From Cellulomonas gilvus ATCC 13127 (lineage in GTDB: Bacteria > Actinomycetota > Actinomycetes > Actinomycetales > Cellulomonadaceae), in contig NC_015671.1 in the NCBI RefSeq assembly GCF_000218545.1, forward strand, positions 1,178,001 to 1,242,000: a stretch of 64,000 nt of DNA, in the 5' to 3' direction. The notes beneath the pieces were generated by a model. That model searched no databases. It saw nothing but the letters and a program-made list of their open reading frames with translations, and was not told the origin of the DNA. The translations under genes and the position numbers were made by a program. Position 1 is the stretch's first letter. Each line of letters begins with the position of its first letter. Below are positions 7,996 through 25,511 of this stretch, one piece after another.

Positions 7996-9555
7996 CTAGG
8001 CGGTGGCAGCGGCGGGCGTGCCGTCGACGGTCCACGGCTCGACCTCGTGCGCGGGGCGCACGGACGCGACGCCCAGACCGAGCGTGCCGGGGCGCGCGAC
8101 CGGGATCTCGTGCACCTGGTCCTCGACGTCGGTCACCGCGAGGCGGACCTCCCACGGACCCGCACCCGCGGTCGCGGACGCGGGCACCAGGACGTCGAGG
8201 TCGAGGTGCCACTGGCGGCGGTGGAACGGCGAGCGCGGGACGGCGACGACGCTGCGCTGCCGGCCGGGGCCGACCAGCACCAGGTCGAGGTGCCCGATCC
8301 CGCCCGTGACGCGGTCGCACTCCAGGCTCAGGCTGAGGACCCGGCCCGAATCCGTCGGGCGGTCGGCGCGGCCCTCGGCGCACAGCCCGCGGGCCGCGAG
8401 CCGCACCTCGAGCGCGAGCCGGCGTGCGTCGCGCTCGTCCACCAGGTCGAGCAGGTGGGCCGTCGTCCCCTCGGGGGCCGGCTCGGGCTCGGGCACGACC
8501 AGGTCGCGGAACGTGGCGGCGCCCGCGACGAGCGCATCGGCCTCAGGGGCGTCCGCGAGGGCGGCGTCGATCGCGCGCGGGAGCAGCTCGTCGACGAGCT
8601 GCGTCGTCGCGGCCCCGACGTCGAGCGTCCCCGCGACGAGCTCCGGCACCCGGCGCAGCACCTCGTCGGGGAACTCGGCCGTCGGGATCGGCCGGCCGTG
8701 CACCGTGCGCAGCCGCGAGCCGAGACCCCACACGTCCCGCGGGAAGGACGCGACGAGCGCGTCACGGTCGAAGGACGGCGCGCCGTGCCCGCCGAGCGCG
8801 AGAGCGTCGGGCACGTCGCGCGCGATGCGCGCGTGCGCGCGTCCGGTCCCCGCGAGGTAGTCGCGGTACTTCAGCGGGTCCTCGTGCGCCGACGCGACGA
8901 ACCGGGCGGGGATGCCCAGCGCGTCGGCGACCACGACCGCGTGCAGCGACGACCCGACGACGATGCGCGACTGCGCGATCGTGCGCAGGACGCTGCGGAC
9001 GCTGTCGGTCGGGTCGAGGACGCGCGTGCCGCCGTCGGTGTCGCCCGCGGGCAGGGCGTCGTCGGTCAGGTCGGCACGGTCGTTGAGGTTGGGCGCCACC
9101 AGGACGTCCCAGCGCTTGACCCGGGTCCAGCGGACCAGCTCCGGCAGCAGCTCGGGCAGCAGCAGCGCGGGATCGCCGTACACCTCAGGCACGTCGACGC
9201 CACGAGCGCGCAGGAACGCGGCGGTGAGCGGCCCGCGCACCGCCCGCACGTCGAGCTCGAGGTCCGCGGTGACGTGGCCGTTGTCGGCCTTGCCGTTGAG
9301 GCCCGAGCCCCACACGACGTCGCGGCGGCGGCCGAGGTGGAGCACCGAGCCGACCGAGAGCACGCGGCGTGCGGGCACCTGCGCGAGCCGGACCGTGGGA
9401 TCGAGCCGCTCGAGCATGAGCTCGACGACGAGCGGGCCCAGCAGGTCGCCGACGTTGTTGACCAGGGCGCTGCGGCCGTCGTGCTCGCGCAGCGGGTTCC
9501 ACTGGAACGCCGCCACGCCGCCGACGAGTCGCTCGAAGTCGCCCGGCTCGTCCAC
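7996..9555 (-). CDS. Polysaccharide pyruvyltransferase family protein (519 aa)
   Basis: It resembles the CsaB/WcaK pyruvyltransferase family, which adds ketal-linked pyruvate from phosphoenolpyruvate to polymer sugars. Family-like features are NVGDLLGPLVVE near residue 30, WGSGLNGKAD near 85, DPALLLPELLPE near 135, and the C-terminal SRIVVGSSLHAVVVADALGIP near residue 205. About 280 residues follow that I cannot assign; the last part is strand-rich (WHLDLDVLVPASATAG). The GTG at 9555 was chosen because a TACGCT -10 box ends eight bases before it, giving a leaderless mRNA. Longer in-frame sequence upstream lies beyond that promoter. Confidence 0.75.
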   Translation of the reverse strand: MDEPGDFERLVGGVAAFQWNPLREHDGRSALVNNVGDLLGPLVVELMLERLDPTVRLAQVPARRVLSVGSVLHLGRRRDVVWGSGLNGKADNGHVTADLELDVRAVRGPLTAAFLRARGVDVPEVYGDPALLLPELLPELVRWTRVKRWDVLVAPNLNDRADLTDDALPAGDTDGGTRVLDPTDSVRSVLRTIAQSRIVVGSSLHAVVVADALGIPARFVASAHEDPLKYRDYLAGTGRAHARIARDVPDALALGGHGAPSFDRDALVASFPRDVWGLGSRLRTVHGRPIPTAEFPDEVLRRVPELVAGTLDVGAATTQLVDELLPRAIDAALADAPEADALVAGAATFRDLVVPEPEPAPEGTTAHLLDLVDERDARRLALEVRLAARGLCAEGRADRPTDSGRVLSLSLECDRVTGGIGHLDLVLVGPGRQRSVVAVPRSPFHRRQWHLDLDVLVPASATAGAGPWEVRLAVTDVEDQVHEIPVARPGTLGLGVASVRPAHEVEPWTVDGTPAAATA

Positions 9556-9716: not shown

Positions 9717-11809
9717 CCTCGGCGGTCCCCGAGCCGGTCGCCGCATCGGCCCCCGCCGCGGGTCCCGCTGCCCGCACCGGGCGCTCGCTGCGACGCGACG
9801 TGCAGGGTCTGCGTGCGGTCGCCGTGCTCGCCGTGATCGCCGACCACGTGCTCGGCCGGCCGCAGGGCGGGTTCGTCGGCGTCGACGTGTTCTTCGTGAT
9901 CAGCGGCTACCTGATCACGGGCCTGCTGCTGCGCGAGCACGCCCGGACGGGGTCCATCTCGTTCCGCGGGTTCTACGCGCGCCGCGTGCGGCGCATCATG
10001 CCGAACGCGCTCCTCACGCTCGTCGTGACCGTGGGCGCCACGGCCGTGCTCGTCGGCGGCGACCGGCTGGCGGCGACCGTCAAGGACGCCGTCGCCGCCG
10101 CGCTGACCGTGGTCAACTGGCGTTTCGCGGTGCAGGGCACGGACTACTTCGCGCAGGGGCTGCCGCCGTCTCCCGCGCAGCACTTCTGGTCGCTCTCGGT
10201 CGAGGAGCAGTTCTACTTCGTGTGGCCGTGGCTCATGCTCGGGCTGCTCGCGCTCGTGGCCCGCCGTGCCTCGGCCCGCTCCGGCCGGGTCCGCGGCACG
10301 TGGGTGCTCGGCGTGGCGATGGGCGTGGTCGTCGTCGCCTCGTTCGCGTGGGCGCTGCACCAGTCGGCCGCGCAGCCGTCGTTCGCCTACTTCTCGACGC
10401 TCACGCGCATCTGGGAGCTCGGCGTCGGCGCGCTCGCGGCGATCGGCGCGGTCCGGGTCGCGCGGTGGTTCGCGGCGAGGCCGCGGTGGACGCGTCCCGT
10501 GGCCGCGTGGGCGGGGCTGGTCGGGATCGGCGTGTCGCTGCTCGTCGTCCGCGCGGACCAGGGCTTCCCCGCGCCGTGGGCGCTCCTGCCCGTCGCCGCG
10601 ACCGCACTGGTCATCATGGCGGGGGAGGGTGCGACGGGCTCGGGCCCGTGGCCGCTGACCAACCGCCCCATGAACTACGTCGGTGACGCGTCCTACTCGC
10701 TGTACCTGTGGCACTGGCCCGTCGTCGTGCTGCTGCCCGTGCTCGTGCCCGACGACTCGGCGTGGTTCGGCGCGCTCGCGGTGGCCCTCGGCGTGGCGCT
10801 CGCGCTGCCCGCCTACCACCTGGTGGAGAACCCGGCGCGCGGCGGGCACCCGGGGCATGATGCGCAGGGTCGTCGCGCGCACCCGCTGCGCCGCGCGTCG
10901 TTCGCCGCGGTCGCGCTGGCCGCCGTGGTCGTCGGCGGCTGCGCGGTGACCGTCTCGGCGCTCGAGAGCGCACGCGAGCCGGTCCAGGCGTCCCCGGTGG
11001 GCTCGCAGACCGAGTGCTTCGGTGCCAGGACGCTCGAGAAGCGTGCGCTGTGCGCGGACGTCGTGTTCGCGGACCCCGTGACGCCCGACCCGCAGGACGC
11101 GGAGTCGGACATGGGCGGCGCGTACAGGTGCTACAGCGCGCAGGACGCGCCCGCCAAGCCCTGCACGCGCGGTGACCTCGACGGCGCGACGCGCGTCGCG
11201 GTCGTCGGGAACTCGCACGCGGCTGCGCTCCTGCCCGGGCTGCTGCCCGAGGCCGAGCGGCTCGGCTGGAAGGTCGACGTGCTCGTCGGGTTCGGCTGCA
11301 ACCTCACGACGACGCCCAACCCCGCGTGCGCCGGGACGAGCGCCGAGATCGAGCGCCGCCTCCTGCACGACGAGCCGTACGACCTGGTGATCACCACGTC
11401 CAGCCGGTCCGCCACGGGCGCCGCGCGCCTGGACCGCATCCCGGGGCTGCGGGACATGATGGACGCGGTCACCGCGCGCGGCACCGCGGTCGCGGCGGTC
11501 TCGGACGCCCCGATGGTGAGCGAGCAGGCGCTCGCGTGCGCCGCGCGGATCGGCGCCGACCTGTCGACGTGCGGCATGCCGCGGGACGAGGCGTTCGCGG
11601 TGCGTGACCCCCTGCGCGAGCCCGTGCGTCAGTCGGCCGACGCGGTCTTCGTGGACGTATCCGACCTGTACTGCCGCCCCGAGACGTGCCCGGTGGTGGT
11701 GGGTGGCGTGCTCGCGTACCGCGACACCGCGGGCCACACCACCGCGACGTACAGCCGCACGCTCGGCCCGATCCTCGTCGAGCGGATCCGCGAGGCGACC
11801 GGGATCTGA
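9713..11809 (+). CDS. Membrane acyltransferase 3 with C-terminal SGNH domain (698 aa)
   Basis: It has the OafB-type architecture. Residues about 25-390 form an acyltransferase-3 domain of roughly ten membrane helices, with the opening LRAVAVLAVIADHV, GFVGVDVFFVISGYLITG, RRVRRIMPNA and FWSLSVEEQFY. This is followed by a periplasm-facing SGNH hydrolase domain with block I VVGNSHAAAL near residue 500 and a C-terminal TAGHTTATYS. Such enzymes move acetyl groups across the membrane and O-acetylate surface sugars. Block I reads GNSH rather than GDSH; the catalytic Ser is kept. ATG 9713 overlaps a possible leader ORF stop. A similar protein occurs at 39788. Confidence 0.9.
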   Translation: MTSAVPEPVAASAPAAGPAARTGRSLRRDVQGLRAVAVLAVIADHVLGRPQGGFVGVDVFFVISGYLITGLLLREHARTGSISFRGFYARRVRRIMPNALLTLVVTVGATAVLVGGDRLAATVKDAVAAALTVVNWRFAVQGTDYFAQGLPPSPAQHFWSLSVEEQFYFVWPWLMLGLLALVARRASARSGRVRGTWVLGVAMGVVVVASFAWALHQSAAQPSFAYFSTLTRIWELGVGALAAIGAVRVARWFAARPRWTRPVAAWAGLVGIGVSLLVVRADQGFPAPWALLPVAATALVIMAGEGATGSGPWPLTNRPMNYVGDASYSLYLWHWPVVVLLPVLVPDDSAWFGALAVALGVALALPAYHLVENPARGGHPGHDAQGRRAHPLRRASFAAVALAAVVVGGCAVTVSALESAREPVQASPVGSQTECFGARTLEKRALCADVVFADPVTPDPQDAESDMGGAYRCYSAQDAPAKPCTRGDLDGATRVAVVGNSHAAALLPGLLPEAERLGWKVDVLVGFGCNLTTTPNPACAGTSAEIERRLLHDEPYDLVITTSSRSATGAARLDRIPGLRDMMDAVTARGTAVAAVSDAPMVSEQALACAARIGADLSTCGMPRDEAFAVRDPLREPVRQSADAVFVDVSDLYCRPETCPVVVGGVLAYRDTAGHTTATYSRTLGPILVERIREATGI

Positions 11810-11903: not shown

Positions 11904-13196
11904 ATGAGCGACGACTGGTCCCGGTGGAGCGCGTTGCCGCACCTGGTGCTCGCCGATCCGGACGCGGACGCGGTCGAGCTCGCGCTCGGCGGGGCGCTGA
12001 CGGTCGCGCAGCAGCCCGTGGTGGCCTCCTCACCGCTCGGTGCGGTGGTCCTGCTCGACGAGGAGAACACCCCGCTGGCCGTCCGCTCGGAGCCGCACGC
12101 ACCGCTCGAGGCGCTCCGGCCGCGCGGCGTGCGGGGCGGCGAGGACGCCGACCGGCGGTACCGGGTGCCGGCGCGGGAGGTGCGCACGCGCCTGTCGGGT
12201 CTCGGCGTGCTGGGCGTGCTGGTGGACGACGTGCCGGGGACGGGCGAGCTCGCGCGCGTCGTCGAGCGGGCGGCGGGTGCGGACCACGTGCTGCTGCTGT
12301 GCCTCGTCGGGACGCCGCGCCCGGCCTACGCGGCGGACGTGTCCAGCGCCGGCGTCGTGCGGGCCGCGGCCGCGCTGGCGGAGGCCGTCGAGCGCGACAC
12401 GGGGATCCCGGCGTCCACCGTCGCGGTGCCGTGGGCCGCGGGCGCCGTGCTGCACCGTCTCGCGTGGCCCGGCGGGGCGGGGCCGTCGCTCGACGACGTC
12501 GCGCGCGCGTACGGCGCGACGGACGTGCTCGACCTCTCGGCGCAGCCGGGCGCGGGACGTCAGGAGTTCACCGACGCGGTGCGGCGGCGCGACGAGGTCC
12601 TGGCGCGCAGCTTCCCGCCGGCGTCCGCGCGTGAGCTCTCCGGCGCCGCGACCGCCGGAGTGGGGCCGGGCGCCGTGGTCCTGTTCACGGGGCTGTCGGG
12701 CTCGGGCAAGTCGACGGTCGCGAAGGCCGTGGCGCAGCGGCTCGAGGTCTCCAGCGCGCGCCGGGTCGTGGTGCTCGACGGCGACGAGGTGCGGCACATG
12801 CTGTCGGCGGGCCTCGGGTTCGACCGTGAGTCGCGGTCGCAGAACGTGCGCCGGATCGGGTACGTCGCCTCGCTCGTCGCGGGTGCGGGCGGCATCGTGC
12901 TCGCCGCGGCCATCGCGCCGTACGAGGCCGACCGGGCGGACGTGCGCCACCGGACCGAGGCGGCCGCGACGTTCGTGCTGGTGCACGTCGCCACGCCGCT
13001 CGAGGTGTGCGAGGCCCGCGACCGCAAGCACCTGTACGCGCGGGCGCGCGCCGGTGAGGTCCCCGAGTTCACGGGCATCTCGGCGCCGTACGAGCAGCCG
13101 CACGACGCGGACCTGGTGATCGACACGACCGACCTCGACCTCGCGGCCTCGGTGGACGCGGTGCTCGCGGTGCTCGCGCGGTCGGGCGTCGAGTGA
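11904..13196 (+). CDS. cysC: APS kinase with degenerate ATP-sulfurylase-like N-terminus (430 aa)
   Basis: The C-terminal 180 residues are a complete adenylylsulfate kinase: P-loop GLSGSGKS at 263-270, DGDEVRHML near 292, SQNVRRIGY near 312 and the EFTGISAPYE lid near residue 390. It phosphorylates APS to PAPS in the cytoplasm. The first 245 residues resemble a shortened ATP sulfurylase (Sat): a PUA-like opening (DAVELALGGALTV), LLLCLVGTPRP near 131 and YGATDVLDL near 203. The sulfurylase catalytic QxRNPxHxxH motif is missing (VLVDDVPGTGELA occupies that place), so this half is probably inactive. A normal CysC is about 200 residues. The stop overlaps the next gene (GTGA). Confidence 0.85.
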   Translation: MSDDWSRWSALPHLVLADPDADAVELALGGALTVAQQPVVASSPLGAVVLLDEENTPLAVRSEPHAPLEALRPRGVRGGEDADRRYRVPAREVRTRLSGLGVLGVLVDDVPGTGELARVVERAAGADHVLLLCLVGTPRPAYAADVSSAGVVRAAAALAEAVERDTGIPASTVAVPWAAGAVLHRLAWPGGAGPSLDDVARAYGATDVLDLSAQPGAGRQEFTDAVRRRDEVLARSFPPASARELSGAATAGVGPGAVVLFTGLSGSGKSTVAKAVAQRLEVSSARRVVVLDGDEVRHMLSAGLGFDRESRSQNVRRIGYVASLVAGAGGIVLAAAIAPYEADRADVRHRTEAAATFVLVHVATPLEVCEARDRKHLYARARAGEVPEFTGISAPYEQPHDADLVIDTTDLDLAASVDAVLAVLARSGVE

Positions 13197-14242
13197 GCGC
13201 CGGCGCCGAGGACGCTGCGCCGGCGACGGTCGAGGCGGTGCCGGCGGGGACGCGGATCGTCCACATCGGCGCCGCGAAGACCGGGACCACGTCGGTGCAG
13301 GCCGCGTTCGCCGCGGCGCGCGAGCAGCTCGCCGGGCTGGGCGTCCTCTACCCGGGCACGGGTGCGAACCACAAGGCCGAGATGGACCGGCTGCTCGCGA
13401 ACCGGCCGGGCGGTGCGCTCGAGCGGCTGCGCACCGAGCTGGCGCAGCATCCGGAGCATCGCGTGCTGCTGAGCGCCGAACGGCTCGCGCACCAGCTCGC
13501 ACCCGGTCCGCAGCGTGTGCGCGAGCTCGTCGGCGAGCGGGCGCACGTGGTGCTCACGTTGCGCAGCGTGGCCGACTTCCTCGCCTCGATGTGGCAGCAG
13601 GAGGTCAAGAGCGGCGAGGTGCGCGACCTCGACACCTGGACCCGCGAACGACTCGAGGCGATCGACCGGTACAACCTCCTGCGCCGCGACGACGGGACGG
13701 GCGTGGCGCGTCGGTGGGTGCGCGAGTTCGGTCCGGAGCACGTCACGGTGGTGGTGCTCGAGCGGTCGAGCCCCGGGCGGCTGTTCGAGGTGTTCGAGGG
13801 GCTGTGCGGGCTGCCCGCGGGGACGCTGCGCGTCTCCGAGCTGAACCGCGGCCTCACGTGGCCCGAGGCGGAGCTGGTGCGTGCGGTCAACGTGCGCATC
13901 GCGGCCGGCGGTGCCGCCGAGCGTGCCGACCTGCGCCGGCTCGTGCACCTCGGGATCGTGTCCGGCATCGTGCGCGACTGGTCGCCCGAGCAGGGCGAGG
14001 CCAGGCCCGTGCTCCCCGCGTGGGCCCGGGCGCAGGTGGTGGAGGTCGCCGCGCGGCTCGGCGACGACGTCCGCGCGTCCGGCGCGCGCGTCGTGGGGGA
14101 CCTCGCCGAGCTCGAGCGGTTCCCGACGCGCGACATGCCCGGACCCGTGGGCGCCGTGCCGACCGGGCTGCTCGACGCGGCGCTGCACGGCCTGGTCCGG
14201 CGTACCGCGGCCATGACGCGGCGGCGCAGCGGGCGGCCGTGA
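13193..14242 (+). CDS. PAPS-dependent sulfotransferase (349 aa)
   Basis: The N-terminus carries the 5'-phosphosulfate-binding loop of PAPS sulfotransferases, HIGAAKTGTTS, with the catalytic Lys and loop at residues 29-34. The 3'-phosphate-binding segment is LTLRSVADFLASMWQQE near residue 120. It would transfer sulfate from PAPS to a hydroxyl or amine of a carbohydrate. It overlaps cysC by four bases, which places PAPS production and use in one transcript. No signal peptide or membrane helix is evident, so it probably acts on a cytoplasmic, lipid-linked or nucleotide-linked intermediate. Two related proteins follow at 14326 and 16245. Confidence 0.85.
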   Translation: MSAGAEDAAPATVEAVPAGTRIVHIGAAKTGTTSVQAAFAAAREQLAGLGVLYPGTGANHKAEMDRLLANRPGGALERLRTELAQHPEHRVLLSAERLAHQLAPGPQRVRELVGERAHVVLTLRSVADFLASMWQQEVKSGEVRDLDTWTRERLEAIDRYNLLRRDDGTGVARRWVREFGPEHVTVVVLERSSPGRLFEVFEGLCGLPAGTLRVSELNRGLTWPEAELVRAVNVRIAAGGAAERADLRRLVHLGIVSGIVRDWSPEQGEARPVLPAWARAQVVEVAARLGDDVRASGARVVGDLAELERFPTRDMPGPVGAVPTGLLDAALHGLVRRTAAMTRRRSGRP

Positions 14243-14274
14243 CGCCCCCGGCGCCGACGTGGTGTCCGTTCCAT

Positions 14275-14280
14275 TAGTCT
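14275..14280 (+). promoter_or_regulatory. Putative -10 box TAGTCT
   Basis: TANNNT match about 45 bases before the ATG at 14326, probably starting the sulfotransferase-cysQDN operon. A short GTG-started ORF of eight codons (14294-14320) lies in the leader. Confidence 0.45.
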
Positions 14281-14325
14281 TCTGGGGTTTCCCGTGCCGG
14301 CCGACCCGGAAGGTCGTTGACAGTC

Positions 14326-16248
14326 ATGCCCGTCGATCGCGCCGCGAGCGACCGACTCCCGCAGGGGTGCCGGCTTCTCGTCGTCGGGACACCCGGGCGC
14401 GAGTCGGCCCGGCTCGACGCCCGGCTGGTCGACGAGGCCGACGCGCTCGCGGAGCACGGCGTCACGGTGCTCGCGGCGGGAACCCGGTCGGTCCGCGCCG
14501 CGCTGGACGCCGCCGCCGACGAGGCGCACGCGCTCGCCCAGGCGCTGTCGACCGCTGGTACCGGCACCGTGGCGGTGCTGTCCGACGAGAGCCTCGCGGC
14601 GGCGACGCCGGCGGAGCTCAGCGGACTGCCGACGCTGCTCGGGGGACCCGTGCACGTCGTGGTCGATGGGGCACCCGACCCATGGGTCGACCTGTTCGGC
14701 CCCGATGCCGTCACCGCCGTCGGTCCGACGCACGGGTCGCCCGGCCTGTCCGCGGAGCTGGCTCGGCTGCTCGACCTCCCCACGGAGCAGCTGGTGCCGC
14801 CCGCGGGCGACGCGCCCGAGCCTCCCGTCCTCGAGGGCGTCTGGTGGCGGCGCGCCCAGGAGCCGGTGCCCGCACCCCTGCAGCTGACCGAGGCGCTGCT
14901 GGACGCGGCGGCCGGTGCGCTCGACAGGGGTGCCGCGGGTGACGCCGGCACACCGTCCGAGGTGCCGCTGGACGGTGCGGCGGATGCGCTGTACGCGGCG
15001 TTCCGCACCGCGCGCGACGAGGTCGCCGCCGCCGGCCGGCCCGTGAGGCGCACCGTGGACGAGCTGCGGCCGCTGCCCGTGGGGACGACCCTCCTGCACG
15101 TCGGGCTGCCCGCCGCGGGATCCGACGTCGTGCAGCGCTCGTGGCGCGCCTGGAGCACGGCGGCACTGCCGGGCGCACGCGTGGCATACCCGGGTGCCCG
15201 CGACTCGCACGACGTCCTGGCGGCCTGCCTGCTCGCGGGCTCGCCCGAGGAACGCGCCGAGCTGCCCGCGGCGATCGGCAGGCTGCTGCCCCCGCAGGAG
15301 GCGGAGGACGCTCAGCACGTCACGCACGTGCTCAGCGCCGAGCGTCTGGCGCTCGCGGACGCCCGACGGGTGCGAGCGCTCGTCGCCGCGCTGCGCGCCG
15401 CGGGCTGCACCGGTCTCCACGTGGTCCTCACGCTGCGGAACGTCCCCGAGCTGCTCGTGGCCGCGTGGCAGCACACCGTCACCTCGGGCGGCGGCCACGA
15501 CCTCGACACGTGGCTGCGGACGGCGTTCCAGGACGACGGCTCGGTCCGGATGCCGGGGCTCGACGCGCTGGGCGAGGCCGACGGCACGTCGCTCGTCGCC
15601 CGGTGGGCCGATGCCGTGGGACCCGCGCACGTGACCGTCGTCGTCGAGCGCGACGAGGGCCGGGACACGCTCGCGGTCCTCGCACGACTCGCGGGCCTCG
15701 GTCGCGACGCGGTCGATGCGGTGCCGAGCACGCGTGCCCTCACGGCCCGCGAGACGGAGCTGATCCGGGCGTTCAACGCGCACCTGCCCTACCGCGCGAC
15801 GGTGCCGCCCGCCCAGCGCCGGCTCCTGGTGCGGCGCGGAGCGATCGCCGGGCTCCTGGCGGGCCCGCGTCCCGACGACGCGGACGCCGCGCTGCCGGCC
15901 TGGGCGCTCGCGCCCGCGCAGGCGGCAGGCCGCCGTCTCGAGGAGCAGGTGGGCGGGCTGCCCGTCACGGTCGTCGGTGACCTCTCCGTGCTCGCGGACG
16001 CGCCCTCGAGCACGCAGGGCATGCCCCCCGCGGAGGACCTGACGGTGCTGCACCGCTCGTCGGTCGAGGCAGCGCTGCTGGGCATGTTCGACCGCGCCGT
16101 GCGGTTCCCGGAGCCTGAGCCCGTCGTGGCGCCTGCTCCCGCGTCGCCCCGACCGTCGCTGCGCCACGTGCCGACCCGCGCGATCGCGCGTGAGCTCGTC
16201 GGGCGCGTGACGGGCCGGCGCGCCGGTGCGGGGGAGGTGCGCACGTGA
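14326..16248 (+). CDS. Degenerate sulfotransferase-like protein, two domains (640 aa)
   Basis: The second half (from about residue 250) aligns by eye with the two flanking sulfotransferases, including LSAERLAL, LDTWLRTAF, ETELIRAFNAHL and a matching C-terminal segment. The PAPS loop HIGxxKTGTTxxQ is replaced by HVGLPAAGSDVVQ at 258-270: the catalytic Lys and the TGTT are gone. The 3'-phosphate segment LRSxxxxLxSMW has become LRNVPELLVAAW. The first half (residues 16-160) looks like a second, shorter decayed copy: LLVVGTPGRESAR at the loop position, LSDESLA, VHVVVDGAPDPW and LARLLDLP. It is probably catalytically dead but kept intact in the operon. ATG 14326 follows GGAAGG; a TTG at 14317 is an alternative start. 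Confidence 0.75.
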   Translation: MPVDRAASDRLPQGCRLLVVGTPGRESARLDARLVDEADALAEHGVTVLAAGTRSVRAALDAAADEAHALAQALSTAGTGTVAVLSDESLAAATPAELSGLPTLLGGPVHVVVDGAPDPWVDLFGPDAVTAVGPTHGSPGLSAELARLLDLPTEQLVPPAGDAPEPPVLEGVWWRRAQEPVPAPLQLTEALLDAAAGALDRGAAGDAGTPSEVPLDGAADALYAAFRTARDEVAAAGRPVRRTVDELRPLPVGTTLLHVGLPAAGSDVVQRSWRAWSTAALPGARVAYPGARDSHDVLAACLLAGSPEERAELPAAIGRLLPPQEAEDAQHVTHVLSAERLALADARRVRALVAALRAAGCTGLHVVLTLRNVPELLVAAWQHTVTSGGGHDLDTWLRTAFQDDGSVRMPGLDALGEADGTSLVARWADAVGPAHVTVVVERDEGRDTLAVLARLAGLGRDAVDAVPSTRALTARETELIRAFNAHLPYRATVPPAQRRLLVRRGAIAGLLAGPRPDDADAALPAWALAPAQAAGRRLEEQVGGLPVTVVGDLSVLADAPSSTQGMPPAEDLTVLHRSSVEAALLGMFDRAVRFPEPEPVVAPAPASPRPSLRHVPTRAIARELVGRVTGRRAGAGEVRT

Positions 16249-17606
16249 CCCGGGTCGACGACCCGCGCGCGCTGGTCCTCCCCGAGCGCACGCGCCTGCT
16301 GCACATCGGCTCGCCCAAGACCGGGACGACCGCGCTGCAGAACGCGATGTCGCGCCTGCGCCCGCAGCTGCTCGAGCAGGGCGTGCGCTACCCCGGGACC
16401 ACGCTGCACCACCAGTACGGCGCCTCGGTGCTGCTCGGCCGCAAGTCCCCCGCGTGGGGCGGGACGCTGCCGCCGCACGAGTGGTGGGACGACCTGCAGG
16501 CGGAGATCGACGCCGAGACCGAGCGTCGGGTGCTCGTGAGCTACGAGATGATCTGCCAGGGCGACCTGCCGGCCGTCCAGCGGTTCGCCGACGCGCTCGG
16601 CGAGCGGACCCACGCGGTGCTCGTCGTCCGCAGCTTCGGCACGCTCCTGCCCTCCATGTGGCAGCAGCGCGTCAAGATGGGCCTGTCCCAGCCGCTCACC
16701 GGATTCCTCCGGGAGGCGCTCGCGGATCTCGACGAGGTCCGCATCCGGTACTCGGACGCGTTCCACCGCTCGGACGGGCTGCACCTGGTCGAGCGCTGGG
16801 CGCGCGTGCTGGGGCCCGAGAACGTGACGGTCGTCGTGCTCGACCCGGCGCGCCGGAGCCTGCTGTTCGACGCGTTCGAGGGTCTGCTCGACCTGCCCTC
16901 GGGCCTGCTCGACACGGCCCCGAGCGACGGTCACCGCGCGAACCGCAGCATGTCCCGCGCCGAGGCCGAGCTGGTGCGGCACCTCAACGAGCTCACGCTC
17001 GGCGAACGGCGCGCGCCCAAGCCCGAGCACCGGCGGCTCGTGTGGCAGGGCGCGGTGGACCGCATGCTCAAGACGCACGAGCCCACGCGTGCCGAGGGCC
17101 GGGTCGCGATCCCGCGGTGGGCGCTCGAGCCGTGCCAGGAGGCCGGGCGGCGGCTCGCCGAGGTCGTCCGAGCACAGGGCGTGCGGGTGCACGGCGACCT
17201 GGACGTGCTGTCCGCGCCCGTCCCGGTCCTCGAGGAGACGGGACCGCCCGAGCGCGACCTCTTCCCGGTCGACGCGGCGGCGCAGGCGCTCATCGGCATG
17301 TTCGCGGGTGCGCTCGGCCGTCCGGTCACGATGCGTCCCGTGGAGACCAGGCTCGACGCGGACCACCCGCTCGCGCTGATCGGCCACGCGGGCGCGGTAC
17401 CCGGTGCACCCGCGGCGGCGGTCGCCCCGCCGGGATCCGGTACCGGTTCGTCGGGGAGCGTCCCGGCGGACGGGCCCGCCGCCCGGGCCGAGGCGCTCGC
17501 GGCCGCCTCGACACGTGACCTGGCGCGTGCGGTCGCGCGGCGCGCGACGCGGGCACCACGCCGCGCGGCACGTCGTGTGCGGCGCAGGCTGCGGCGGGAG
17601 CCGTGA
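16245..17606 (+). CDS. PAPS-dependent sulfotransferase (453 aa)
   Basis: The intact 5'-phosphosulfate loop HIGSPKTGTTALQ has its Lys and TGTT at residues 25-29. The 3'-phosphate segment is VVRSFGTLLPSMWQQR. The catalytic domain ends near residue 360. A Pro/Gly/Ala-rich linker and a strongly basic tail (RRATRAPRRAARRVRRRLRR) follow, which may hold the enzyme at the membrane or on an acidic polymer. The GTG start overlaps the TGA of the degenerate paralogue, so all three are coupled or closely spaced. The acceptor is unknown; a surface glycan is the likely one from context. Confidence 0.85.
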   Translation: MTRVDDPRALVLPERTRLLHIGSPKTGTTALQNAMSRLRPQLLEQGVRYPGTTLHHQYGASVLLGRKSPAWGGTLPPHEWWDDLQAEIDAETERRVLVSYEMICQGDLPAVQRFADALGERTHAVLVVRSFGTLLPSMWQQRVKMGLSQPLTGFLREALADLDEVRIRYSDAFHRSDGLHLVERWARVLGPENVTVVVLDPARRSLLFDAFEGLLDLPSGLLDTAPSDGHRANRSMSRAEAELVRHLNELTLGERRAPKPEHRRLVWQGAVDRMLKTHEPTRAEGRVAIPRWALEPCQEAGRRLAEVVRAQGVRVHGDLDVLSAPVPVLEETGPPERDLFPVDAAAQALIGMFAGALGRPVTMRPVETRLDADHPLALIGHAGAVPGAPAAAVAPPGSGTGSSGSVPADGPAARAEALAAASTRDLARAVARRATRAPRRAARRVRRRLRREP

Positions 17607-17658
17607 CGTGCCGGACGACGAGACGCCCGAACGGACGGACCTCCAGGAAGCAGGTGCC

Positions 17659-18471
17659 ATGACGACCACGGACCACGAGCTCGCGGCGCAGCTCGCCGTG
17701 AGCGCGGGACGCGTGCTCCTCGCGCTGCGCGAGCAGATCGCGGACGTGCCCCCGGCCGAGCTCAAGGACCGCGGCGACGCGGCTGCGCACGAGCATCTCC
17801 TCGCCGAGCTCGCACGCCTGCGGCCCGCCGACGCCGTGCTGTCCGAGGAGGGCGCGGACGACCCGGTCCGGCTCTCGAGCGACCGCGTCTGGATCGTCGA
17901 CCCGCTCGACGGGACCCGGGAGTTCTCGGAGCGGGACCCCGACGGTGCGTGGCGGACGGACTGGGCCGTGCACGTGGCCCTGTGGGAGCGCGGCGCGGGC
18001 CTCACGGCGGGCGCGGTGGCCCTGCCCGGGCGCGACGAGGTGTTCTCGACCGGCGAGCCGAGCCGCCGGCCCGTGTCCGGGCCCGGGCCGCTCCGCCTCG
18101 CGGTGAGCCGCAGCCGCCCGCCCACGCTCATCGCGCAGCTCGCGGCGCTCGCGGACGTCGAGCTCGTGCCCATGGGCTCGGCGGGCGTGAAGGCGATGTC
18201 CGTGCTCACCGGCCAGTGCGACGCGTACGTGCACGGCGGCGGCCAGTACGAGTGGGACTCGGCGGCGCCCGTGGCCGTCGCGACCGCCGCCGGACTGTTC
18301 TGCTCGCGGCTGGACGGCTCCGACCTGGAGTACAACCGCGAGAACCCGTGGCTGCCCGATCTCGTCGTGTGCGAGACGCACCGGTCGGCCGACCTGCTCG
18401 ACCTCATCGCCCGCGCCACCGGTACCGGTGACGCGGGCCCCGCACCGGCGAAGGAGAACGCTGCGCCGTGA
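17659..18471 (+). CDS. cysQ: 3'(2'),5'-bisphosphate nucleotidase CysQ (270 aa)
   Basis: An inositol-monophosphatase-fold enzyme that hydrolyses PAP (the by-product of sulfotransfer) to AMP and so relieves product inhibition. The metal-binding residues are all present: LSEE at residues 61-64, DPLDGT at 81-86 and WDSAAP at 199-204. ATG 17659 follows GGAAG. An in-frame GTG at 17608, two bases after the sulfotransferase stop and also with a GGAG site, would add 17 residues and is a fair alternative. Its place between the sulfotransferases and cysDN fits a PAPS cycle. Confidence 0.88.
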   Translation: MTTTDHELAAQLAVSAGRVLLALREQIADVPPAELKDRGDAAAHEHLLAELARLRPADAVLSEEGADDPVRLSSDRVWIVDPLDGTREFSERDPDGAWRTDWAVHVALWERGAGLTAGAVALPGRDEVFSTGEPSRRPVSGPGPLRLAVSRSRPPTLIAQLAALADVELVPMGSAGVKAMSVLTGQCDAYVHGGGQYEWDSAAPVAVATAAGLFCSRLDGSDLEYNRENPWLPDLVVCETHRSADLLDLIARATGTGDAGPAPAKENAAP

Positions 18472-19382
18472 CCACCACCCGCTCCACCTACCAGCTGAGC
18501 AACCTCAAGGCGCTCGAGGCGGAGAGCATCTACGTCTTCCGCGAGGTCGCCGCCGAGATGCGCAAGCCGTGCCTGTTGTTCTCGGGCGGCAAGGACTCGA
18601 TCGTCATGCTGCACCTGGCGATGAAGGCGTTCGCGCCCGCGCGCATCCCGTTCCCGGTGATGCACGTGGACACGGGGCTGAACTTCCCCGAGGTGCTGCA
18701 GTTCCGCGACGAGGCCGCGCAGGCCCTGGGCGTGCGGCTGATCGTCGCGTCGGTCCAGGAGGCCATCGACCGGGGCCTGGTCCGCGAGGAGAAGAACGGC
18801 TCGCGCAACCGCATCCAGACGCCGGTGCTCCTCGAGGCCGCCGAGGCCCACGGCTTCGACGCGCTGTTCGGCGGCGCGCGTCGCGACGAGGAGAAGGCGC
18901 GCGCCAAGGAGCGCGTGTTCTCCTTCCGCGACGAGTTCGGCCAGTGGGACCCGAAGAACCAGCGCCCCGAGCTGTGGAGCCTGTACAACGGCCGCGTCCA
19001 CCAGGGCGAGTCCATCCGGGTGTTCCCGCTGTCCAACTGGACCGAGCTGGACATCTGGTCCTACATCGGTGCCGAGGACATCGCGATCCCGGACCTGTAC
19101 CTGGCCGCCGAGCGTGACGTCGTCGAGCGCGACGGCATGCTCTACGCGGTGAACGAGTTCATCGAGCCGCGCCCGGGGGAGACCGTCTCCACCCGGATGG
19201 TGCGCTACCGCACGATGGGCGACGCCAACCTCACCGCCGCGGTCGAGTCGGACGCCACGACCGTCGAGGACATCATCACCGAGATCGCCGCCGCCCGGCT
19301 GACCGAGCGCGGGGCCACCCGCGGGGACGACCGGGTCAGCGAGGCCGCGATGGAGGACCGCAAGCGCGAGGGGTACTTCTAG
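18468..19382 (+). CDS. cysD: Sulfate adenylyltransferase subunit 2 (CysD)
   Basis: The PP-loop ATP pyrophosphatase subunit of ATP sulfurylase, 304 residues, which makes APS from sulfate and ATP. The SGGKDS motif is at residues 39-44; FGGARRDEEKARAKER and FPLSNWTELDIW are family hallmarks. The length is normal. The GTG start overlaps the cysQ stop (GTGA), and cysN begins two bases after the stop, so the three are one unit. It supplies APS to the CysC protein upstream. Confidence 0.95.
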   Translation: MTTTRSTYQLSNLKALEAESIYVFREVAAEMRKPCLLFSGGKDSIVMLHLAMKAFAPARIPFPVMHVDTGLNFPEVLQFRDEAAQALGVRLIVASVQEAIDRGLVREEKNGSRNRIQTPVLLEAAEAHGFDALFGGARRDEEKARAKERVFSFRDEFGQWDPKNQRPELWSLYNGRVHQGESIRVFPLSNWTELDIWSYIGAEDIAIPDLYLAAERDVVERDGMLYAVNEFIEPRPGETVSTRMVRYRTMGDANLTAAVESDATTVEDIITEIAAARLTERGATRGDDRVSEAAMEDRKREGYF

Positions 19383-19384
19383 AC

Positions 19385-20647
19385 ATGAGTGATCTGCTGA
19401 GGTTCGCGACCGCCGGTTCGGTCGACGACGGCAAGTCCACGCTGATCGGCCGCCTGCTGTACGACAGCAAGTCGCTGTTCAGCGACCAGGTCGAGGCCGT
19501 GGAGCGGGTGAGCGCCGACCGTGGCGACGACTACACCGACCTGGCGCTGCTCACCGACGGCCTGCGGGCCGAGCGCGAGCAGGGCATCACGATCGACGTG
19601 GCGTACCGCTACTTCCAGACCCCGCGGCGCAAGTTCATCATCGCCGACACCCCGGGGCACATCCAGTACACCCGGAACATGGTGACGGGTGCCTCGACCG
19701 CGGACGTCGCGCTCATCCTCGTCGACGCGCGCAAGGGCATGACCGAGCAGAGCCGCCGCCACGCGTTCCTGGCGACGCTGCTGGGCGTCCCGCACCTGGT
19801 GGTCTGCGTCAACAAGATGGACCTGGTCGACTGGTCGGAGGACGCGTTCGAGTCCATCCGCGCCGACTTCACGGACTTCGCGGCGCGCCTGCGCACGCAT
19901 GACATCTCGTTCATCCCGGTCTCGGCGCTGCTCGGGGACAACGTGGTGGACCGCAGCACCCACATGCCGTGGTTCGACGGGTCGACGCTGCTCGGCCACC
20001 TCGAGCGGCTGCACCTGGCGGGTGACCGCAACCTGATCGACGCGCGCTTCCCGGTGCAGTACGTGATCCGTCCGCAGTCGGAGTCCTCGCGCGACTACCG
20101 CGGGTACGCGGGCCGCGTCGCGAGCGGCGTCATGCGTGCGGGCGACCCCGTGGTCGTGCTGCCGTCGGGCTTCGAGTCGACGATCGCGTCGATCGAGGAG
20201 GCCGGCGAGCCGGTCGACGTCGCCTACCCGCCCATGTCCGTGGTGGTGCGGCTGGCCGACGAGATCGACATCAGCCGGGGCGACATGATCTGCCGCCCGG
20301 CGAACATGCCGACCGCCACGCAGGACCTGGACGTGCAGGTGTGCTGGATGGACGAGACCGCGCCGCTGCGCAAGGGCGTCGTCTACGGGCTCAAGCACAC
20401 CACGCGCACCACGCGGGCGAAGGTCACCGAGGTCGAGTACCGGATCGACATCAACACGCTGCACCGGGACCAGTCGACGGACGTGCTCGAGCTCAACGAC
20501 ATCGGCCGCGTGCGCCTGCGGACCAGCACCCCGGTGTTCGTCGACCAGTACGAGCTCAACCGCGAGACGGGCTCGTTCATCCTGATCGACGAGTCGACCA
20601 ACCGCACCGTCGGCGCGGGCATCGTCACCACGACGCGGCAGGACTGA
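19385..20647 (+). CDS. cysN: Sulfate adenylyltransferase subunit 1 GTPase (CysN)
   Basis: An EF-Tu-like GTPase that drives APS synthesis with CysD. G1 is GSVDDGKST (residues 11-19), G3 is DTPGH (88-92) and G4 is NKMD (143-146); domains II and III of the elongation-factor fold follow. At 420 residues it is the short form without a fused APS kinase, in keeping with the separate cysC upstream. It is the last gene of the operon and a strong hairpin follows it. Confidence 0.95.
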   Translation: MSDLLRFATAGSVDDGKSTLIGRLLYDSKSLFSDQVEAVERVSADRGDDYTDLALLTDGLRAEREQGITIDVAYRYFQTPRRKFIIADTPGHIQYTRNMVTGASTADVALILVDARKGMTEQSRRHAFLATLLGVPHLVVCVNKMDLVDWSEDAFESIRADFTDFAARLRTHDISFIPVSALLGDNVVDRSTHMPWFDGSTLLGHLERLHLAGDRNLIDARFPVQYVIRPQSESSRDYRGYAGRVASGVMRAGDPVVVLPSGFESTIASIEEAGEPVDVAYPPMSVVVRLADEIDISRGDMICRPANMPTATQDLDVQVCWMDETAPLRKGVVYGLKHTTRTTRAKVTEVEYRIDINTLHRDQSTDVLELNDIGRVRLRTSTPVFVDQYELNRETGSFILIDESTNRTVGAGIVTTTRQD

Positions 20648-20654
20648 CCGCCGC

Positions 20655-20691
20655 GGTCCGCCGTCGCGCGCCCAGGCGCCGACGGCGGACC
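20655..20691. terminator. Bidirectional hairpin terminator between cysN and the LCP gene
   Basis: Perfect 12-base arms GGTCCGCCGTCG (20655-20666) and CGACGGCGGACC (20680-20691) with a 13-base loop, placed between two convergent stop codons (20647 and 20701). There is no U tract, as is common in high-GC actinobacteria. It can serve both strands. Confidence 0.75.
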
Positions 20692-20700
20692 GTCGCGGTG

Positions 20701-22077
20701 TCAGTCGAGCCCGCCGACCTTGCCCGGCGGCAGCTTGCCGTCGCGGATCTGGCGGAAGAACGTGGGCGTCTCCTCGGGGTCGAGCAGCACCGTCGAGCCG
20801 ACACCGCCCGGGCGGTAGTCGAGGTCCGCGATGGGCGGGGTGCCCGTGATGCCGTCCTTGCCGTTGGCGGCCTTGAACGCGAGCGCGAGCCGGCCGAGGT
20901 CGAGCACGCCGGCCGACTCGTCGACCGTGAGCGACCCCGTGGCCGCCGTGATCAGCGAGACCTGCTGCGACGGGTGGAGCACCAGGCTCTTCGGGTCGAC
21001 CTTGCCGAGCACGGCACCGACGACCTGCCGCTGGCGCTTGGCGCGGCCGATGTCACCCTGCGGGTCGGCCTTGCGCATGCGCGCGAACTGCAGCGCGACG
21101 GTCCCGTCGGCGACGTGGCAGCCGGCCTTCCACTTGAGGTGCGAGTCACGGTCGTTCACGTCGTCGTCGTAGCACAGGCGCACACCGCCCACCGCGTCCA
21201 CGACGTCCTTGACGCCCGCCATGCCGATCTGCGCGTAGTGGTCCACCGTGAGGCCGGTGAACTTCTCGACCGTCTTGACCAGCAGGGGAGCGCCACCATA
21301 CGCGAACGCGGCGTTGATCTTGCCGGGCCCGTGCCCCGGGATCTCGACGTAGGTGTCGCGCGGCAGCGAGATGAGCGCCGTGGGTCCGCTCTCGGGGACG
21401 TGCAGCAGCAGGATCGTGTCGCTGCGCTCGCCCGTGGTGCCGTCGTCCTTGACCCCGCCGTCCTTGCGCGAGTCCGAGCCGGTGAGCAGGTAGGTCGTGC
21501 CGACGGTGCCCGGTGCGCCGGACAGCGCCTCGGTGCGCTGGATCTTGCCGTCGGCCCACATCACGAGCCCGATGGGCCACGCGAGCATGAGCACCAGGAC
21601 GAGCGCGACCACGACGAGCGTCCAGCGCAGACGCCGCCGGGGCCGCGGTGCGGCCGGTCCGGCCACGGGCTGCCCTCCGGAGCCGGGGCCGCGACCGCCG
21701 GGTCCCGACGAGGCGGCCGCGCCGGCGGGACGACGCGCTGCGGGCCGTGCCGTGCCGGACCGTGCACCCGAGGCCGCGGACCGCGGTGCGCCGGACCGGG
21801 CGGCGGGAGCGCCCGCGGGCGGTGTCGAGCCGGGGGTGATCGACGGCGCCCGGCCGGAGCCCGCGGATCCCACGGGCCGCGCGGGGCGTGCGGGAGGCGG
21901 CGTCCGGCCGGCGGTGCGCGGCGAGCCGCCCGCGGACGCGTCGGCGTGGGGCCGCGGCGGCACGGAACGCTGCCGGCCGACGGGCACCGCGCCACTCGCG
22001 TCCGGGCGCGAGCCGCCCGCTCCGGGGCTGAAGCTGGGCGGGACGTCCGGACCGTCGTGCGGTCGTTCGGGCCGCAT
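20701..22077 (-). CDS. LCP family glycopolymer-peptidoglycan ligase (458 aa)
   Basis: A LytR-CpsA-Psr protein that transfers lipid-linked wall polymers to peptidoglycan. A Pro/Ala/Arg-rich cytoplasmic N-terminus of about 160 residues precedes one membrane helix (WTLVVVALVLVLMLAW). The extracellular LCP domain follows with LLTGSDSRKDGG, RSDTILLLHV, SLPRDTYVEIPG and INAAFAYGG, which contain the conserved Arg and Asp residues. The ATG at 22077 lies two bases after the stop of the second LCP gene, so they are co-transcribed. It probably attaches the polymer made by the flanking glycan genes. Confidence 0.92.
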   Translation of the reverse strand: MRPERPHDGPDVPPSFSPGAGGSRPDASGAVPVGRQRSVPPRPHADASAGGSPRTAGRTPPPARPARPVGSAGSGRAPSITPGSTPPAGAPAARSGAPRSAASGARSGTARPAARRPAGAAASSGPGGRGPGSGGQPVAGPAAPRPRRRLRWTLVVVALVLVLMLAWPIGLVMWADGKIQRTEALSGAPGTVGTTYLLTGSDSRKDGGVKDDGTTGERSDTILLLHVPESGPTALISLPRDTYVEIPGHGPGKINAAFAYGGAPLLVKTVEKFTGLTVDHYAQIGMAGVKDVVDAVGGVRLCYDDDVNDRDSHLKWKAGCHVADGTVALQFARMRKADPQGDIGRAKRQRQVVGAVLGKVDPKSLVLHPSQQVSLITAATGSLTVDESAGVLDLGRLALAFKAANGKDGITGTPPIADLDYRPGGVGSTVLLDPEETPTFFRQIRDGKLPPGKVGGLD

Positions 22078-22079: not shown

Positions 22080-23327
22080 TCAGCAGGAGCCGGTGTTGTC
22101 GTCGAGCGTGAACGAGTCGCGCCCGGCCTTCTTCGTGGCCTGCGGCTTGGGTGTCTTCCCCGGGTTCTGCGTGGCCTTCGTGCCGCCCGAGGGGTTCTTC
22201 GTCGGCGCGGTGGTCTCGGCGGTGCCCGGGTCGTTCTGGGTGCCCGTGAGCATGGGGGTGTCGGACGCGAGGTTCGCCCACACGATGTCGGCCTCGGGGG
22301 TCCACTCGACGCGGTTCTTGTCGGTCGGCGCCGCGCCCCACGGGATCGTCATGAAGGCGATGTTGCCAGTGCGGATGCTCCGCGCGCTGTAGGCGAGCCC
22401 GGCGAGGTCAGAAGTCTGCATCGACGTGGTGAGCGACTTGGTGGCGGCGTTGAGCACGCCCAGCAGGTCGGTCCAGTCGGTCAGCACGTTCTTCGACAGC
22501 GTCTGGGACGCGATGGCGGCCAGCAGGCGCTGCTGGTTGCCGATGCGGCCGATGTCCGAGCCGTCGCTCGTCTGGCTGTGCCGCGATCGCGCGAACGCGA
22601 GCGCGGTCCTGCCGTCGAGCGTGTGCATGCCCGCGTCGATGTGCAGCTTGGCCTTCTCGTCGTCCATGTCCGCGGGGATGCAGATCTTCACGCCACCGAT
22701 CGCGTCGACCATGTTCTGGAAGCCCGCGAAGTCGACCAGCAGGAAGTCGTCGATCCGGACCCCGGTGTTCGCCTCGACGGTCTTCCACGTGCACGCCGCG
22801 GCGGACGCGAGGTCCAGGCCCGTGTCCCAGCCGCGTGCGAAGGCCTCGTTGAACATCGCGTAGTCGCTCGCGCCCGTGGTCTGCCCGTCCGTCGTGGTGC
22901 AGGACGGGATGGCCACCATCGAGTCGCGCGGGATCGAGACGAGCTCGACGCGCGACCGGTCGGCGGAGATGTGCAGCACGATCGTCGTGTCCGAGCGCAT
23001 GCCGCCCGCGACGCGCCCGCCGATGTCGCCGTTCTCGCCCTCGCGCGAGTCCGAGCCGAGCAGCAGCAGGTTGACGGGCTTGCCCGCGTCGGGGTCGGCG
23101 CCGGGCTTGACCGCGGCCCGCTCGGGGCGGTCGCCGAGCAGGTCGTCGACCTCGACGTGGTTGATGTTGCCGTTGAGCCGCTCGTACGTGGCGTACACCG
23201 CGGTGCCGCCGAACGCGAGGAGGGCGACGGTCACGAGTGCGGTGCCGCGCATGACCCGACCGCTGCGGTGCGTGCGGGCGTGACGCGCGGTCGTGGGGCG
23301 CTCGGCAGAGGCATGGCGGGCTGGCAC
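22080..23327 (-). CDS. LCP family protein, second paralogue (415 aa)
   Basis: A short basic N-terminus is followed by one membrane helix (GTALVTVALLAFGGTAVYA) and an LCP domain: LLLLGSDSREGENG, RSDTTIVLHIS, SIPRDSMVAIP and FNEAFARGWD. The C-terminal 60 residues are low-complexity (Thr, Pro, Lys) and end in Cys. The GTG start lies seven bases after a TACGAT -10 box, so the mRNA of this two-gene LCP operon would be leaderless. It differs from its neighbour in domain length and tail, suggesting different polymer or acceptor preference. Confidence 0.9.
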   Translation of the reverse strand: MPARHASAERPTTARHARTHRSGRVMRGTALVTVALLAFGGTAVYATYERLNGNINHVEVDDLLGDRPERAAVKPGADPDAGKPVNLLLLGSDSREGENGDIGGRVAGGMRSDTTIVLHISADRSRVELVSIPRDSMVAIPSCTTTDGQTTGASDYAMFNEAFARGWDTGLDLASAAACTWKTVEANTGVRIDDFLLVDFAGFQNMVDAIGGVKICIPADMDDEKAKLHIDAGMHTLDGRTALAFARSRHSQTSDGSDIGRIGNQQRLLAAIASQTLSKNVLTDWTDLLGVLNAATKSLTTSMQTSDLAGLAYSARSIRTGNIAFMTIPWGAAPTDKNRVEWTPEADIVWANLASDTPMLTGTQNDPGTAETTAPTKNPSGGTKATQNPGKTPKPQATKKAGRDSFTLDDNTGSC

Positions 23328-24762: not shown

Positions 24763-24770
24763 GGGGCACG

Positions 24771-25511
24771 GTGACCGACGGGTCCGCGGCGGGGCGTGAC
24801 GGGCGTGCGCGCGCGCACGTCGTCGTGCTCGCCGCGGGCCTGGGCTCACGGCTGGGCACCGGCGCGCCCAAGGCCCTGACGACGCTGCGTGACGGGCGCA
24901 CGATCCTGCGTCAGCAGCTCGACGTGCTGAGCCGCCACGCGGTGGTCGAGCCCGCGGTGGTCGTCGTGGGCTTCCGGGCCGACGAGGTGCGCGCGGCCGA
25001 GCCCGCCGTGCGTGCCGTGCCGAACGACCGCTACGCGAGCACCAACACGGCTCGCAGTCTCGCGATCGGGCTCGACGCGTGCCCGCCCGGCGACGTGCTC
25101 TGGCTCAACGGCGACGTCGTGTGCCACCCCGAGGTCGTCGGCCGCGTGCTGGCCGCGCGGACGACCGCGGTCGCGGTGGACACCGCGGCCGTGGGGGAGG
25201 AGGAGGTCAAGTACGACCTCGACGACGAGGGCTGGGTGCGGCACCTGAGCAAGCAGGTGACGCCCGCGCTCGGCGAGGCGGTGGGCGTGAACCTGGTGGC
25301 CGCCGCCGACCGTGCGGTGCTGCGCCGCCGCCTCGACGACGTCGCCGACGGCGACTACTTCGAGCGCGCGCTCGAGCTCGCGATCGCGCGGGACGGGCTG
25401 CGCGTGCGCCCCGTCGACGTGAGCGACCTGTTCGCGGTCGAGGTCGACTTCCCCGCGGACCTGCGGCGTGCCGACGACGCGCTCGCCGCGGCGTCGACCC
25501 CGACCCCCTGA
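24771..25511 (+). CDS. Sugar/alcohol-phosphate nucleotidyltransferase (246 aa)
   Basis: The N-terminal motif VVVLAAGLGSRLG..APKAL is the nucleotide-binding signature of NTP transferases of the LicC/GlmU type. WLNGDVV (near residue 105) holds the metal-binding Asp, and VEVDFPADL closes the domain. The small size and downstream neighbours (a CDP-glycerol-type polymerase and a CDP-alcohol phosphatidyltransferase) suggest it makes a CDP-linked alcohol or sugar, though the nucleotide cannot be read from sequence. The GTG start has GAGGGG five bases upstream, nine bases after the CHAP gene stop. Confidence 0.8.
   Translation: MTDGSAAGRDGRARAHVVVLAAGLGSRLGTGAPKALTTLRDGRTILRQQLDVLSRHAVVEPAVVVVGFRADEVRAAEPAVRAVPNDRYASTNTARSLAIGLDACPPGDVLWLNGDVVCHPEVVGRVLAARTTAVAVDTAAVGEEEVKYDLDDEGWVRHLSKQVTPALGEAVGVNLVAAADRAVLRRRLDDVADGDYFERALELAIARDGLRVRPVDVSDLFAVEVDFPADLRRADDALAAASTPTP

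Follow-up and report, generated by a model that had tools for sequence, protein, structure and literature searches.

Gene Content of the Operon

The window analyzed here is a stretch of 64,000 nucleotides (bases 1178001-1242000) of the 3.53-Mb single-contig genome of Cellulomonas gilvus ATCC 13127. Positions 11904-20647 of the window hold an operon comprising cysC, three genes of sulfotransferase (ST) type, cysQ, cysD and cysN (Table 1), a set associated with the making and use of the sulfate donor 3′-phosphoadenosine 5′-phosphosulfate (PAPS). A first-pass annotation, made from the sequence alone, had placed these genes together on one strand, and our gene calls and family matches agree. Its statement that they mostly overlap by four bases applies to three of the six junctions (cysC/ST1, ST2/ST3 and cysQ/cysD), the others being gaps of 83, 52 and 2 bases. 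The flanks are also as it described, with an acyltransferase-SGNH gene upstream and two LytR-CpsA-Psr (LCP) genes downstream. Genes were called by base composition and start positions may be off; the family scans covered 40 of the 50 called proteins of the window.

Table 1. Features of the window, with the operon listed first and the surrounding locus after it.
Feature	Position	Strand	Basis
cysC, adenosine 5′-phosphosulfate (APS) kinase with N-terminal domain of ~240 residues	11904-13196	+	PF01583
ST1, sulfotransferase, PAPS motifs intact	13193-14242	+	motifs
ST2, tandem degenerate sulfotransferase, probable pseudoenzyme	14326-16248	+	motif loss
ST3, sulfotransferase, PAPS motifs intact	16245-17606	+	motifs, predicted fold
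cysQ, 3′-phosphoadenosine 5′-phosphate (PAP) phosphatase, Inositol_P family	17659-18471	+	Pfam; below CysQ equivalog cut-off
cysD, sulfate adenylyltransferase small subunit, genome's second copy	18468-19382	+	TIGR02039
cysN, sulfate adenylyltransferase large subunit, genome's second copy	19385-20647	+	TIGR02034
Strong hairpin between convergent cysN and LCP genes	20645-20703		-50.2 kcal/mol, z -5.98
DUF6716 putative glycosyltransferase (GT), gene end, continues beyond window	1-234	-	PF20471, E 1.3e-123 (L008:17047-18234)
Protein of unnamed family, candidate transferase of 3-deoxy-D-glycero-D-galacto-nonulosonic acid (Kdn)	231-1223	-	kept beside NeuB/NeuA in relatives
NeuB-type nonulosonic acid synthase, probably Kdn-9-phosphate synthase	1247-2128	-	PF03102, E 1.7e-82
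CMP-nonulosonate transferase fused to KdsC/Kdn-9-P-phosphatase-like HAD domain	2166-3332	-	PseF, KdsC, KDN-9-PPhBT
GT2 glycosyltransferase	3567-4553	+	PF00535
GT2 glycosyltransferase, conserved near pyruvyltransferase	5135-6946	+	PF00535, synteny
GT4-type glycosyltransferase, conserved beside pyruvyltransferase	6915-7988	-	family and synteny
Polysaccharide pyruvyltransferase	7996-9555	-	PF04230, E 8.5e-15
Membrane O-acyltransferase with SGNH domain	9824-11809	+	PF01757, PF19040
LCP ligase 1	20701-21666	-	PF03816, E 2.5e-44
LCP ligase 2	22080-23252	-	PF03816, E 5e-44
GT2, conserved beside Kdn/ABC or LCP/ABC genes in relatives	29686-30732	+	synteny
ATP-binding cassette (ABC) polysaccharide exporter, two genes	31906-33631	-	PF00005, PF01061

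CysC matched APS_kinase at E 6.9e-56 (188.9 bits against a cut-off of 21.1) and TIGR00455 of NCBIfam at 184.7 bits (cut-off 138.7), and the NCBIfam models for CysD and CysN were likewise exceeded (451.8 against 396.6 and 555.1 against 336.1 bits, respectively). CysQ passed the Pfam cut-off for Inositol_P (E 1.5e-27) and had TIGR01331 as its top NCBIfam match, though under the equivalog cut-off of that model (85.5 against 228.8 bits); we label it a PAP phosphatase based on these two matches and its position in the operon. The N-terminal domain of CysC (11904-12660) is kept in Cellulomonas and Promicromonospora and had no match in Pfam or in sequence searches of the PDB, neither of which supports our guess, drawn from scattered similar residues, that it is a shrunken ATP sulfurylase.

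PAPS Supply and Cysteine Synthesis

The first-pass annotation read the operon as serving sulfation rather than cysteine synthesis, noting that the cluster lacks genes for PAPS reductase and sulfite reductase, and the Pfam and NCBIfam scans of the cluster found no reductase. It had also raised the possibility that this operon is the only supply for cysteine. A second, assimilatory cluster at ~1.633-1.639 Mb, however, has genes for sulfite reductase, CysH, CysD and CysN and no cysC, and one of its genes looks by eye to be of siroheme type. The CysH of this cluster has the paired cysteines (CC and CxxC) of APS reductases, and cysteine synthesis should therefore need neither PAPS nor the window operon. 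No full APS kinase is encoded in the genome besides the cysC of the window; the one further match reaches 40 of the 152 positions of the profile, with an E value of 5.8e-4 that is formally at the cut-off. CysD and CysN of the window are closer to the copies beside Promicromonospora Kdn genes (76 and 72%) than to the assimilatory copies of their own genome (64 and 55%).

The separate assimilatory operon with its APS-reductase-type CysH, together with the sole full cysC in the window, argues that PAPS is made here for sulfation, as the annotation proposed. Many bacteria use CysD, CysN and CysC for sulfate assimilation, and the operon could on that ground be considered mainly a route of sulfate to cysteine in which the sulfotransferases are passengers. 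We regard this as very improbable, and reject assimilation as the main role, given the lack of a reductase in the cluster, a reductive cluster elsewhere that should need no PAPS, and the fact that 54 of the 60 surveyed genomes of the genus showed no full APS kinase.

The Sulfotransferases

Neither Pfam at E 0.01 nor NCBIfam at E 1 matched any of ST1-ST3 to a sulfotransferase family, and the single NCBIfam match of ST1 (E 0.33) was judged to be due to chance; we name them sulfotransferases from their PAPS motifs and the predicted fold of ST3. ST1 and ST3 contain the sequence HIGxxKTGTT, corresponding to the 5′-phosphosulfate-binding (KTGTT-like) loop, the residues H, I, G, K, T and G of which are invariant in all 15 aligned members of the family. 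The 3′-phosphate motif, an arginine followed eight residues on by a serine, is R129/S137 in ST3 and has an equivalent in ST1; by eye, the arginine is present in 15 and the serine in 13 of the 15 members. The structure predicted for ST3 (predicted local distance difference test score 79) has a sulfotransferase fold, and all 50 of the 50 matches listed were PAPS-dependent sulfotransferases, the nearest among them being a bacterial sulfotransferase of unstated substrate and heparan-sulfate sulfotransferases.

Of the three sulfotransferase-type genes that the annotation had counted, ST1 and ST3 keep both PAPS motifs and ST2 does not. ST2 consists of two degenerate domains in tandem: neither half retains KTGTT, the second half has also lost the serine of the 3′ motif, and the orthologue in another Cellulomonas genome (G033) is likewise missing KTGTT twice. 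ST2 is probably a pseudoenzyme. Its frame is still open and of coding-type base composition, with a ratio of nonsynonymous to synonymous substitution rates of 0.60 relative to the G033 orthologue. Tandem proteins with one intact and one degenerate domain were seen, among the long members analyzed, in Promicromonospora umidemergens (L018) and in G041.

When the 15 aligned members were compared with Pfam at E values up to 1, five touched Sulfotransfer_1 (best 0.0087) and three touched Sulfotransfer_4 (best 0.00087). The profile of the family, run against single Pfam-named sulfotransferases, gave matches of motif length only (E 0.068 and 0.0025; controls 0.27 and 0.36), and phmmer searches of the PDB with ST3 and ST1 returned no relevant match. 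The family is unnamed and probably glycan-directed, with degenerate partners.

The Surrounding Glycan Locus

The annotation set the operon among acyltransferase, glycosyltransferase and LCP genes, which is correct, but overlooked the context of Kdn and pyruvate genes and the wall polymer of Promicromonospora citrea described below. The nonulosonic acid made here is probably Kdn, which we favor over another nonulosonic acid because the phosphatase domain fused to the CMP-transferase is KdsC/Kdn-9-phosphatase-like. A UDP-GlcNAc-2-epimerase-family gene at 36997-38085, which was the one further nonulosonate-pathway candidate among the scanned window proteins, makes a product of the N-acetylneuraminic acid type possible.

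Downstream of the LCP genes, positions 23629-27693 hold LGFP, MobA-like, CDP-glycerol-transferase-like (GlyphT) and CDP-alcohol-transferase (CDP-OH) genes, and these may serve a second polymer, one that contains phosphate. Of the Cellulomonas loci compared, only the window and G033 showed these genes; a relative of the LGFP gene also occurs in a Promicromonospora genome (G001).

Co-occurrence in the Genus and Beyond

The same 60 genomes of the genus were searched for APS kinase, the ST family and NeuB. A full APS kinase (E below 1e-40 and spanning the profile, with partial matches dropped) is encoded by six; at E 0.001 a match to APS_kinase was found in 31, of which 30 pass the Pfam cut-off and 25 are only partial (best E 1.6e-5). 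The ST profile (E up to 1e-10) matched in five genomes and Kdn-type NeuB (E below 1e-160) in 10, with remote NeuB proteins near 1e-50 in five more. All five ST genomes lie within both the six with full cysC and the 10 with Kdn-type NeuB, overlaps for which the chance is 1.1e-6 and 4.6e-5, respectively, on the assumption of independent genomes, which kinship may break. The ST match of G050 is split between two reading frames on a draft contig, and G047, with no STs and only a remote NeuB, encodes a shorter APS kinase (E 1.1e-46).

Of the 10 genomes with Kdn-type NeuB, the five with STs and G015 have a pyruvyltransferase gene around NeuB; the stretches fetched from the remaining four showed none. 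Two LCP genes adjoin the cassette in the window, LCP genes are kept in all five ST genomes, and so is the order cassette-Kdn-pyruvyltransferase-LCP. G015 has a Kdn-pyruvyltransferase-acyltransferase-ABC locus and LCP genes, in a different order and without the cassette. The best reading is that the sulfation cassette is an optional part of a teichulosonic-acid locus. We rejected G015 as a clean empty site, as its locus is rearranged with the LCP genes on the other side.

A single scan beyond the genus survey gave 47 ST loci. The best 10 (L010-L019, E up to 5e-28) belong to Promicromonospora (2), Demequina (3), Microbacterium (1), Kineosporia (3) and Cellulomonas composti (1), and the remaining 37 are weaker and mostly non-actinobacterial. 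The NeuB search covered these 10: NeuB was found in all nine of the genomes searched, and the tenth, L012, carries it on the locus itself; the cysC of C. composti (L015) was located by tblastn. Two Promicromonospora genomes have NeuA-NeuB-GT-DUF6716-ABC-cysC-TauE-cysQDN together, and pyruvyltransferase, GT and ST genes adjoin in three. Two Demequina genomes carry their ST genes next to or between NeuB and NeuA, and the same contig also has cysC, a TauE-like gene, cysN, cysD and cysQ.

The TauE-family permease gene between cysC and the other cys genes (L067:14499-15509 in Promicromonospora, by Pfam; L011:2530-3510 in Demequina, by eye) has no counterpart in the window operon. Further sulfotransferase-like genes lie near the sulfation or Kdn genes of relatives, at L010:9307-9984 (Sulfotransfer_3), L011:4719-5363 (Sulfotransfer_2) and, by the KTGTT motif only, L066:313-1248.

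Comparison with Known Systems

We compared the locus with polymers and gene clusters described in actinobacteria and in a Gram-negative bacterium, Cobetia. One close likeness is to P. citrea 665T, for which section 23 of the review PMC6801904 gives (for Dmitrenok 2017) a wall polymer of the structure ->6)-Glc-(1->6)-Glc3SO3-(1->4)-7,9Pyr-Kdn-(2->, with sulfate at C3 of glucose and 7,9-pyruvate on Kdn, and a second wall polymer that is a pyruvylated, acetylated galactan. A sulfated Kdn wall polymer is thus already known chemically. Genes in the window cover a Kdn-type acid, the transfer of pyruvyl and glycosyl groups, and PAPS-dependent sulfation, and relatives of these genes lie together in Promicromonospora genomes. 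The P. citrea evidence is chemical, with no genes named in that section, whereas ours consists of genes alone, and the genomes compared are not tied to strain 665T.

Streptomyces coelicolor has a dedicated teichulosonic-acid locus, SCO4873-SCO4882, for a Gal-Kdn wall polymer (Ostash 2014, cited in PMC13011467); the term sulfate was not found in the texts searched, and the two loci were set side by side by description only. The sulfated capsule cluster of Cobetia marina KMM 1449 similarly combines PAPS-making genes, cysQ and sulfotransferases with an ABC exporter in a polysaccharide cluster, but for the capsule of a marine organism, and with no Kdn or LCP ligase in the part of PMC11766843 consulted. 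PAPS-dependent sulfotransferases have also been proposed to modify the cell wall of the actinobacterium Pontimonas salivibrio, in which, according to the excerpt of PMC6106888, no PAPS or sulfite reductase was detected, a polyrhamnose wall was proposed and the sulfate acceptor is putative. The wps-1 glycan cluster of the actinomycete Actinoplanes missouriensis has two predicted sulfotransferases, both required for normal sporangia, but is of Wzx/Wzy type, concerns the sporangium matrix and has other sulfotransferase families, with sulfation being predicted (PMC13390465, in part). According to the same part of that 2026 paper, cyanobacteria are the only bacteria with reported sulfated polysaccharides, a statement contradicted by the P. 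citrea and Cobetia structures given in the sections cited above. Among the matches listed in the open-licence literature listings searched, there was no paper linking genes to sulfation of a Kdn polymer.

Interpretation

Judged from its genes, the cassette very probably serves the sulfation of a glycan. It is likely, on gene content and by analogy with P. citrea, that 11904-20647 is a PAPS-making and PAPS-using cassette within a wall teichulosonic-acid locus, the acceptor being a pyruvylated Kdn chain. In the mechanism we infer, which extends to catalysis, the acceptor sugar and its position, and the wall linkage, CysDN would form APS and CysC would convert it to PAPS; ST1 and ST3 would then transfer sulfate to glycan hydroxyls in the cytoplasm, on a lipid-linked chain or repeat, while CysQ would clear the product PAP. 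The ABC exporter would move the chain out and the LCP enzymes attach it to peptidoglycan. The acceptor would most likely be a Kdn-containing chain with a pyruvate ketal, as in the P. citrea polymer. That Kdn, pyruvyltransferase, glycosyltransferase, ABC and LCP genes remain linked to the cassette across relatives points to a wall-linked polymer and favors the annotation's proposal of sulfate on a peptidoglycan-linked or exported polymer.

Several points weigh against an acceptor of this kind. The polymer of the organism is predicted from genes alone, and Kdn is not proven, since NeuB, the CMP-transferase and the phosphatase, although of the expected families, are all below their NCBIfam equivalog cut-offs. 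The pyruvyltransferase could serve another chain, as P. citrea carries pyruvate on both wall polymers (PMC6801904, section cited), and the co-occurrence may reflect one event if the five ST genomes are one clade or share one gain. An ST match, weak in one case, was present in only four of the 13 Promicromonospora genomes searched; one of the four, G076, showed neither NeuAB nor cys genes in the 80 kb read around its STs. Three Kineosporia genomes, in which cysC was not looked for, carry their STs and NeuB on separate contigs. The STs and Kdn genes of Demequina salsinemoris lie on one contig, but the stretches read there showed no cys gene. The downstream region with more glycan genes may make a second polymer, a possible acceptor.

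It is conceivable, though rather unlikely, that the cassette sulfates such another surface glycan, either a loose exopolysaccharide or a second wall polymer from the genes at ~23.6-48 kb, rather than the Kdn chain. That region has more glycosyltransferases, the CDP-glycerol-transferase-like gene, Ugd and an epimerase, and the neighbors of the Promicromonospora STs are Ugd, an epimerase-2 and a different ABC pair rather than NeuAB. However, the restriction of the LGFP/MobA/GlyphT/CDP-OH genes to the window and G033 contrasts with the cassette order common to all five ST genomes, the PAPS genes of Promicromonospora do adjoin NeuAB, and the ST genes of two Demequina genomes are next to or between NeuB and NeuA. 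The sulfotransferases might instead tailor a natural product or sulfolipid, acting on a small molecule or glycolipid, as other bacterial sulfotransferases do: Teg12, which we take to be a small-molecule-tailoring enzyme, is among the ST3 structure matches listed, and the ascamycin locus, among the literature matches listed, is another case. We consider this improbable, as no natural-product synthase was recognized among the scanned window proteins, the neighbors are genes of polymer export and ligation, and ST3 scores higher with heparan-sulfate than with small-molecule enzymes, a shared fold in itself showing no substrate.

Sulfation of the Kdn chain remains our preferred reading, and we extend it tentatively, at somewhat less than an even chance, to a wider proposal: that the cassette (cysC with its extra domain, active and degenerate STs, and cysQDN) is the genetic basis of sulfated, pyruvylated Kdn-teichulosonic acids, joined in Cellulomonas, Promicromonospora and Demequina to Kdn wall loci, and that the degenerate domains (ST2 and the second halves of the tandem enzymes) act as partners without catalysis of their own, setting which acceptor is used or how far it is sulfated. 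P. citrea is the one case we met, in the section cited, of a sulfated actinomycete wall polymer with a chemical description. The locus is of interest chiefly because it would open a chemically known polymer to genetics: a gene set tied to a sulfated wall polymer would make the question testable genetically and traceable across genomes, and it points to a sulfotransferase family that is unnamed and probably glycan-directed, with degenerate partners.

Other Features of the Locus

The protein at 231-1223 had no Pfam match, and its designation as a Kdn transferase is a guess from gene position. The DUF6716 gene beside it adjoins Kdn genes in several relatives. The hairpin downstream of cysN is very stable, is without an obvious T run and may be a terminator for both convergent transcripts.

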